The notes under the pieces are model-generated. The model did no database searches. It worked only from the letters and a program-made list of their open reading frames with translations, and was not told the origin of the DNA. Position numbers and translations under genes: made by a program. DNA of 64,000 nt from Arctopsyche grandis (lineage: Eukaryota > Arthropoda > Insecta > Trichoptera > Hydropsychidae). The stretch is taken from NCBI RefSeq assembly GCF_051622035.1, contig NC_135355.1, forward strand, positions 22,746,486 through 22,810,485. The letters are read 5' to 3'. Numbering within the stretch: the first letter of the stretch is position 1; each line of letters starts with the position of its first letter. Positions 23,549 through 53,683 of the stretch are shown here, in pieces.

Positions 23549-26500
23549 ATGTCCCAGTCCCTGGCGCGCCGCGCTCCCGCCGCCATGTCGCGCGGGCCGC
23601 TGCGGCCGCTGCTGCTACCACTGCTGCTACTGCTGCTACTCGCGCCTCAAGCACAACCTGCTAACAAAAAATCGACCACAGCCACCCCCACACCAGCCAA
23701 CCCCAAAGAAGCAGAACCCGTCATCGAAGAGGTCACCGCCAAGCAGCTGGAGCGCGTGCTCAACGAAAAAGACTTTGTTGCCGTATACTGGTGTAAGTGC
23801 AACCAAATGTCGACTGCCTCCGTCTGTGCATAGGACAACCACCCACCACCCACCACCCGCCACCCCGTCATGTCAGTGTGTCCTCAGCGTGGCCGTGAAA
23901 GAGGACTTTTCTCCTGAAAAGTTCCCGCGCGCTCTCGGGCTGGGGAACGCTTTTAGCCGCGACCGTCCTCCGGTTTATATTTAACCCCGTGCCGCCCGGT
24001 TACCCGGCTCTCCCCGCTCCCGACAATATTTCACCCGGTTTTCACCAATAATGACACCGCCTGTTGCTTGCTTTTCTTCCCCGCCCCGGTAAACAATCTA
24101 TTTTGTTGCCTGCAATGCGTGCCCCAGCACGACAATAGAATTGTGTCGCGCTATCGAATGGCTCATTCGCCACAACCGAACGCCTTCCTCCCGATTGGAA
24201 GAAAACATGATACACTTATTCCTAAAGCTTCTAGAAAGATTCACGACATGAAATTTGAATCATTTGTCTCTTTCGAGATTTGATATTCTCTCCTGAACCA
24301 TTCTGAATACTACATAAATCGACCTAATTATTATCTAGATACACTCTCCATTTAAACAACAAGAATTAGATAATGGCCGTCGTTTTCTTATATGGATGCA
24401 TTTTTACTTGAACAACAGTTAATAATTCTGTTCAAATTTGTATTCCATATTCAACAAAACATTTTTCTACGTTTTAATTTTTTTTTGCATCATATTTTAG
24501 CAGTGAACGTATGAGCTTTTTTCAATTTTTATAGTTGTCGGTAGTTTTCTATCTCTTCTCATTCTGAACTTATATATCGTTTGTGTATGCACATATGTAC
24601 ATAAATAAACAGTGTCATATCTTGAATGTTTTAAGACTTTAAGTAACCCAAATTACTCCTCTTCATGATGAATCCAGTTTAGATTGAAAATATGCTGCCC
24701 ATTAGACCAAATATATCTACACATGTGTATCTTCCTTCTGCTTATTCCATAGATATAATTGTGTAAGCATCATCATAGGTATTTACAAATACAATTCAGA
24801 TCAACCCGAATTTTAATTAAGAACTATCAGTATGATTTTTATTGTGACGTTCTTCAGATAATGTTCTTTAGAAATTCCTTTGATTACACATCCCACATTG
24901 ATGTCTTGACTTTTTGACAACTACGTTGATGTTGTTATATAATTTGCACCCCGTGGTGTTTTGAAATGTGGCGTAACTGTCAATAAAGCAATCGACTGTG
25001 GTCCAAAAGTTTTAATCTTGTTCTCATTCGAGATCGAGAGATTTTTACGGTTTCTAGTATTGTCAATTTTATGCGAAAAATTGATGATTCAACATCACTT
25101 TTCGCTCTTCCGTCTCACCAATACATTTTTTTATTCTTTCCTTCTTCTAGAATGCAAAAAATGTCCTAAACTCACATAAAAACAACGATAGACCGCAAAA
25201 AGAGTGGATGGAAAAGTGAAATAGATACACTTCAAGTTCTAGATACTTTCAATTTAATATTTTACTGAGTATATAAAATTTACAAAGAAAAGCTTAGTAA
25301 TGTTGACGTTAAACCTAGTTTTGATTTTATTTCCAAGATGATCTAGTAACATTTTTTTATATATTTACATGTCTATGTAGATTATTTTTTAGATTTTTTT
25401 AATATCTATATATGAGTATAAGATAATTTTAAGTGGCATAAGTCCACTTTTCTTCATTTCGAGAAATGTCTCGCAAAACATTAAATGTCATGTTTTGCAT
25501 TTAATAATATTTAAAAATACTGGTGGCTTGTAATGCGTTTATTCTGCTTTTCCAAGATTCTGGACATACCGAATTAACAATTTGTGAAGGACCTGAAAAT
25601 TGGACTTCAACCACTTTCAAATATAATGACTCATACATTTTATTTTATTTATTTTTTTATTTTACATATAAACAAATACTTTTACAAAATAATTTTTATT
25701 TTACATAAAAACCCCAATGCGCCTTCCTGACCAATTACAAACATCGATATATATATTTTTTTTTACATAGAATAATTTTAACAAAGCGTCAGAGACAGTT
25801 TTTTTATATGTATATTCCGTCAAATTTTGAGAAGCTGGAATACTCAAAATTTATGGAGACATTTGCAGCATTTTTATACCAATCAGTGAAATTCGAGATG
25901 CTGAAAGCTCGAAAATTGAGAGAAATGGGGGTTAAAGACTACCAATTTGTAGGAACTGTTTCAATCAAAATCAGATAATTTGGCAAACTCTGATAGGAAA
26001 CGATCGACCTGGAGTCACAAACCAAAGTCTGGCCAGCAGCAACCAGTGGGACTCGAACCCGTGACCACTATGTTCTAAAGCATACATACATATATACTAA
26101 CCACTAGTCCACATCGCTAGTTATACTTGTGATATTCATTTAAGGAACGGAATGTAAAGCTTTTATAAGCTTTCTTATAGAAATATTTTCTTATACATCA
26201 ACAATTTCAGATTAATTAATGAGTGTTTCAAAATTTACGTCTCCAAAAATTATTATGACCAAATTTATATATGTAAGCTATTATTATTTCATTCGTATTT
26301 AGATAGGGTTTACTTTAAAAAATTGCGTTGTAACTGTTTGCATTAATATATTTATTGAAACACACTTTTTAACCTTACTCAACATCTAATATTGTTGTTT
26401 ATTTTCATAAAAAAAACTAAAAACGTATTTCTAAAGGCGAAACTGAATATTTTCAGAATGAACGTATACAATTTACATTAAAATCGAAAGCCACGTGCTA

Positions 26501-53683: not shown

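Follow-up and report, generated by a model that had tools for sequence, protein, structure and literature searches.

A 15-unit thioredoxin-fold gene of Arctopsyche grandis that resembles calsequestrin in build and charge, with a predicted acidic alternative 3' end

The window analyzed here, a 64,000-nucleotide stretch of the Arctopsyche grandis genome (contig NC_135355.1, positions 22,746,486 to 22,810,485), contains a gene that encodes a signal peptide, 15 tandem thioredoxin-fold units, a membrane helix and a short Pro-rich tail. The gene also seems able to stop after nine units with a strongly acidic tail. We propose, with a probability of roughly 0.45, that it specifies a chain of thioredoxin units in the lumen of the endoplasmic or sarcoplasmic reticulum (ER or SR) that has at least two alternative 3' ends and functions as a calsequestrin-like Ca2+ store and redox scaffold, without being a member of the calsequestrin family. 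The evidence is read from the DNA, and consists of the gene model, the homology of the units, their charge and CxxC pattern, the signal and membrane segments, and a set of phase-compatible alternative exons.

The gene occupies window positions 23549-53683 of the + strand. A preliminary description of this DNA had joined 24 exons into a single gene for a membrane-anchored protein of 15 units, and the re-derived exons likewise form one intact frame of 1701 amino acids. Splice junctions were picked by hand from the sequence, without a gene finder; all 23 donors are GT, all 23 acceptors are AG, and 22 of the 23 introns are in phase 1, with the remaining one in phase 2. Hydropathy indicates a hydrophobic N-terminal signal, for which there are two candidate starts (M1 and M13, the latter at 23585), and a hydrophobic segment at approximately residues 1660-1690 that precedes the Pro-rich tail.

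The exons, all on the + strand, were assigned by a six-frame profile scan of unit halves and by in-frame joining, supplemented by hydropathy for the first and last. Exon 1 (23549-23792) carries the signal peptide and the first part of unit 1, the main part of which, with a CVTC motif, is in exon 2 (34888-35070). Exon 3 (37298-37438) ends unit 1 and starts unit 2, which continues with CKKC in exon 4 (40009-40191); exon 5 (40274-40417) similarly connects unit 2 to unit 3. Unit 3, which has no CxxC, occupies exon 6 (40501-40683), and its end is joined to the start of unit 4 in exon 7 (40765-40896). Exons 8 (40972-41286), 9 (41380-41694) and 10 (42927-43241) carry units 4, 5 and 6, respectively, each with the start of the following unit. 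Unit 7, with a shifted CX5C, is in exon 11 (43366-43554), and exon 12 (43804-43944) ends this unit and starts unit 8, which is continued in exon 13 (44032-44352) together with the start of unit 9. Exon 14 (44472-44654) contains unit 9 with CDTC, and beyond it the two 3' ends diverge.

In the long form, exon 15 (48458-48589) provides the end of unit 9 and the start of unit 10. Exon 16 (49109-49432) carries unit 10 and the start of unit 11, and exon 17 (49506-49832) carries unit 11, with CKQC, and the start of unit 12. Unit 12, with CDQC, is in exon 18 (51446-51628), and exon 19 (51718-51849) connects it to unit 13, which is divided between exon 20 (51929-52085; first part, CNIC) and exon 21 (52596-52762; the rest, plus the start of unit 14). 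Exon 22 (52833-53156) contains unit 14, with CPEC, and the start of unit 15. Unit 15, again without CxxC, lies in exon 23 (53242-53424), and exon 24 (53496-53683) encodes its end, the transmembrane helix, the Pro-rich tail and the stop.

The units are 102-110 amino acids long (n=15), in line with the approximately 107 residues described previously, and are 32-62% identical in pairwise comparisons. When two profiles, one for each exon half of a unit (A and B), were scanned over the six frames of the window, 15 A halves were found with E-values from 5e-21 to 9e-31, and 15 B halves were found at 2.4e-8 or better, along with two partial B halves. All matches are on the + strand between 23.7 and 53.6 kb. 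Because the profiles were seeded from these same exons, the E-values are partly circular. Leave-one-out scans, which were conducted for the A halves only, recovered 14 of 14 seeds at 3.4e-16 or better, and the fifteenth A half (53271), a non-seed, is still found by the profile. Across one reversed and three codon-shuffled control windows, the best E-value of the half profiles was 0.039. No unit half scored below 0.6 in the 10 kb on each side of the gene, so no extra units are seen there.

In a search of the genome with units 1-9, all 23 of the best candidates that were scored fell inside this gene, and thus no second gene copy was seen with that query. A tree of the units gives no order of duplication, because none of its 12 inner branches attained starred support. 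A 340-residue query covering units 4-7 was matched by pattern 11 times among viral and 59 times among prokaryotic sequences, collections that do not include insects, and none of these matches was confirmed. Among the matches listed from open-licence papers, titles and the starts of abstracts described no protein of this layout.

Other elements occur in the vicinity. Upstream, frames at 3702-4884 (+) resemble diacylglycerol acyltransferase 2 (PF03982 matches 4420-4884 with an E-value of 6.7e-54; 3702-3968 was assigned by eye). Frames at 8392-12998 (-) resemble kynurenine 3-monooxygenase; the FAD-binding family PF01494 matches 8395-8682 (-), and no Pfam match was obtained for 8766-9020 or 12723-12998. 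A Tc1/mariner-type transposase frame (6091-6834, -, PF01498) and a reverse transcriptase fragment (15005-15265, -, PF00078) are also present, and intron 2 of the gene holds a weak, below-cut-off match to retrotransposon gag (35932-36420, -, PF03732). Four dispersed frames, at 9407 (-), 21601 (+), 22077 (-) and 52179 (+), share the peptide VKRPKTQ and its surroundings and are probably remnants of a mobile element; the one at 52179 is located in intron 20 of the gene. Long TA-type dinucleotide tracts, at 22036-22650 and elsewhere, give IYIYIY frames on both strands. Elsewhere in the genome, near 36086178 of a 42.7-Mb contig, a mitochondrial-like stretch (3348 positions, 1-3348) has the order cox1-trnL(UUR)-cox2-trnK-trnD, where cox2 was identified by family search, the tRNAs were found, and cox1 was recognized by eye. 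The position of trnL(UUR) between cox1 and cox2 is typical of insects and crustaceans and fits a pancrustacean source. The stretch was either inserted into the nuclear genome or joined to the contig during assembly.

The thioredoxin homology of the units is firm at the level of sequence. The joined 1701-residue protein matches Pfam Thioredoxin (PF00085) with an E-value of 8.4e-68. At E≤0.01, 11 of 15 single joined units match PF00085, 13 match TIGR01068 and 12 match TIGR01126, which bears out the expectation that most units would score as thioredoxin-like in profile searches. Unit 1, the sole unit for which scores are listed, passes the PF00085 cut-off and falls below the TIGR cut-offs. Among solved structures, protein disulfide isomerases (PDIs) are closest to the unit profile (8.8e-14). 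Proline is found at the thioredoxin cis-Pro column in every unit, as is an ID[DEG][DE] motif. A lone cysteine follows the IDD[DE] form of this motif in six units (3, 4, 5, 8, 12 and 13), so that additional disulfides could link one unit or chain to another.

When PF00085 was searched exon by exon across the whole genome, none of the 34 listed matches was in this gene, as can happen where introns split every unit; these matches indicate that other thioredoxin-domain genes are present. A structure model of a single-exon piece, which corresponds to a circularly permuted unit, had a mean pLDDT of 69, and Foldseek returned 51 matches for this piece at E≤10 and none at E≤0.001. The model of a stretch that still contained the 93-base intron 41287-41379 had a mean pLDDT of 48.

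Seven of the 15 units carry a CxxC (units 1, 2, 9 and 11-14), consistent with the earlier estimate of about half. It had also been claimed that the remaining units have acidic residues in place of this motif. That is correct mainly for the first cysteine column, which is Asp in five of the eight CxxC-less units; the second is Ser in five; four of the eight, among them units 3, 4 and 8, have DxxS. Six of the CxxC-less units are consecutive (3-8), and the other two are units 10 and 15. Units 3-8 are the most acidic as a group: their net charge per residue is -0.187, whereas it is -0.115 in units 1-2 and -0.123 in units 9-15. Some individual units farther along, unit 12 for example, nevertheless reach the same acidity. 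The lumenal part of the long form has a net charge of -235, and the long form overall has -0.145 per residue.

These features could also be those of a large PDI-family foldase or chaperone of secretory tissue, in which disulfide formation and client holding are the function and acidity is secondary. Like PDI, PDIA4 and ERp44, the protein has a signal peptide and CxxC units beside CxxC-less ones, its best profile neighbors are PDI and thioredoxin models (TIGR01126 and PF00085), and the cis-Pro column is invariant. Classical PDI members have three or four units and the motif CGHC. In contrast, the array has 15 units, none of its seven motifs is CGHC, more than half of the units lack CxxC, and no KDEL-type end is seen. 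Moreover, a foldase would need neither the large lumenal charge nor the predicted Asp-rich end. We therefore regard a foldase function as a possible but rather doubtful explanation of the gene. Long ER arrays of thioredoxin domains are known in ERdj5/DNAJC10, with about six domains, and in TXNDC16 (ERp90), with about five. DNAJC10 matches the unit profile with an E-value of 1.7e-5, and the TXNDC16_N model matches 5 of 15 units, scores 8e-23 over the predicted short form, and weakly touches rabbit calsequestrin 1 (CASQ1) as well (E 0.0086). Unlike ERdj5, the long form has no J-domain family among its Pfam matches. To our knowledge, the domain count in A. grandis exceeds that of every ER example.

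The acidic end is predicted from a second acceptor, at 44858, that follows exon 14 and opens three further candidate exons within 44858-46381 (+), with all junctions in phase 1. The first, exon 15s (44858-44908), is a partial B half that corresponds to the first portion of such a half (profile E 3.7e-5), with phase 1 at both boundaries. If it were read past 44908, a stop would occur at 44935-44937, and AATAAA is found at 44952 and 44958; hence, a third 3' end is possible at this stop. Exon 16s (45198-45704), supported by in-frame joining, codon score and charge, encodes an Asp-rich tail, in the first run of which 79 of 101 residues (78%) are Asp or Glu. The terminal exon 17s (46107-46381), supported by in-frame joining and codon score, encodes a K-rich tail and a stop, and poly(A)-like motifs are present downstream from 46853 on. 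Without splicing at 45704, the frame would stop at 45719-45721; there is no AATAAA or ATTAAA for such a form between 45704 and 46110. The predicted short protein thus has 1273 residues, or 1187 if it ends at 45719-45721, and its net charge per residue is -0.183 with the K-rich tail or -0.209 without it. Because it ends inside unit 9 and adds the Asp-rich tail, without any membrane helix detected by hydropathy, the short form would be soluble.

If the Asp-rich and K-rich exons were unused, the former being a GAT repeat and the frames open by chance, the short form would not exist. The Asp run is indeed GAT-rich, with 50 GAT and 21 GAC among 102 codons, and differs from GAT 22, 12 and 38 times at codon positions 1, 2 and 3; it may in part be a GAT-repeat expansion. 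However, there are three consecutive phase-1-compatible exons, one of them homologous to a unit half, and the codon scores of their used frames (0.43, 1.17 and 0.22 for exons 15s, 16s and 17s, and 0.47 after the first Asp run) are above those of all 393 intron frame-windows (99th percentile 0.03, maximum 0.12), with the caveat that scores trained on this acidic gene favor Asp-rich frames. The intron windows are much longer than the 16-codon exon 15s, for which a different reading frame also reaches 0.39, and the accepted exon 24 scores only 0.09, which is within the intron range. A genome search revealed no second clear copy of exon 17s, the next match having an E-value of 8.4. On balance, we consider it improbable that these exons are unused.

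Comparison with calsequestrin supports the preferred reading of a calsequestrin-like store. Calsequestrin, which stores Ca2+ in muscle and binds it with high capacity, is a lumenal chain of acidic, CxxC-less thioredoxin-fold domains with an Asp-rich C-terminal tail. The counterparts in this gene are units 3-8, 10 and 15 and, in the predicted short form only, the Asp-rich end. Rabbit CASQ1 has a net charge per residue of -0.216, which is close to both values for the short form, and its core has -0.186, virtually the charge density of units 3-8. There are also differences: calsequestrin has three domains without CxxC, whereas there are 15 (seven with CxxC) or nine (three with CxxC) here, and the invariant cis-Pro column and a membrane-anchored form are features of the A. 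grandis gene. In PMC8080761 and PMC12862029, the Asp tail of calsequestrin is described as binding Ca2+, with Ca2+-dependent polymerization and anchoring to the membrane.

As judged from sequence, this resemblance is one of build and charge and not of membership. The calsequestrin model PF01216 is not among the 16 Pfam families that match the long form at E≤1e-3, nor among the 19 that match the short form at E≤1 in a scan that assigns CASQ1 itself an E-value of 2.1e-225. The unit profile matches CASQ1 in one domain with an E-value of 0.023, and hhalign gives a probability of 32%. Together, these results rule out membership in the family. The preliminary description had interpreted the gene as a redox chaperone fused to a calsequestrin-like Ca2+ buffer. 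As history, this is unsupported, because the units form one repeat family, are nearest to PDI and thioredoxin, and have no Pfam calsequestrin match. As a functional picture it survives, since the charge density of units 3-8 fits a calsequestrin-like half, which is strengthened by the Asp-rich alternative end that the description had lacked.

The long form can also be compared with triadin and junctin, in that it would face the lumen from a single membrane helix. According to PMC8080761 and PMC12862029, KEKE motifs in these proteins bind the acidic tail. The K-rich exon 46107-46381 is of a kind that could do so, although the likeness is one of charge alone.

The predicted C-terminal ends are HPKQT, NIWWW, GNEDE or HPLIS. 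None is of the KDEL type, and thus secretion is possible. The protein could then be an acidic matrix component of the cuticle, the egg shell or a mineral- or metal-binding layer, secreted as the short form and anchored at the surface as the long form. The signal peptide, the Asp-rich tail and the single C-terminal helix are all compatible with such a role, and the sole N-glycosylation sequon in 1701 residues says little either way. However, triadin and junctin hold polymeric calsequestrin at the SR membrane, as described in PMC8080761, and the lack of a KDEL-type end therefore does not exclude a lumenal location. An extracellular role seems to us quite improbable. It seems just as improbable that the model merges two genes, one consisting of units 1-9 plus the acidic end and the other of units 10-15 plus the anchor, and that no 15-unit protein exists, because even though the 3803-bp intron (44655-48457) holds a complete alternative 3' end with poly(A)-like motifs, exon 48458-48589 starts inside unit 9, in phase with 44472-44654, and completes that unit, and ATG frames of at least 25 residues with a hydrophobic start occur between 44654 and 48458 only inside the Asp-rich exon and as a short frame at 47094/47103 that ends in a stop and, by eye, has no strong donor.

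For the proposed store and scaffold, we envisage that the array arose through successive duplications of blocks of phase-1 exons. The long form would be held in the membrane by its one C-terminal helix, and the short form would be a soluble lumenal Ca2+ store. Units 3-8 and the Asp tail would most likely take up numerous Ca2+ ions at low affinity and condense together with them, and the seven CxxC units would add thiol-disulfide or client-binding activity, mostly near the membrane. The long form would tether the same array and extend it by units 10-15, among them four with CxxC. From the features of the gene we infer the use of both ends, the lumenal location, Ca2+ binding, redox activity and any role in muscle.

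Calsequestrin itself was sought in this genome. PF01216 produced no candidates in a search run without a calsequestrin-bearing control genome, so that absence is not proven, and the CASQ1 protein had a best E-value of 0.43; the same genome search found exons of the calreticulin family (10 matches on two contigs). PMC7582152 states that calsequestrin was not identified in insects but was found in a spider, and its discussion more broadly describes Arthropoda as lacking calsequestrin; calsequestrin-2-like proteins are listed for the scabies mite in PMC4930577. Insects might have lost calsequestrin and replaced it with a PDI/thioredoxin-derived array, with an acidic, Asp-tailed lumenal Ca2+ store (the short form) and a membrane anchor (the long form) supplied by one gene through its alternative 3' ends, a scenario that we advance only tentatively and think rather unlikely.

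In insect muscle, Ca2+ is cycled by way of an SR. The gene described here is thus a concrete, testable candidate for the SR Ca2+ store of insects, in which calsequestrin is reported missing (PMC7582152). If the protein does store Ca2+, such a store would have been re-invented convergently, starting from the fold that calsequestrin also uses. If it is a redox chaperone instead, the length of its array would still be unusual, and it might switch between soluble and anchored forms.
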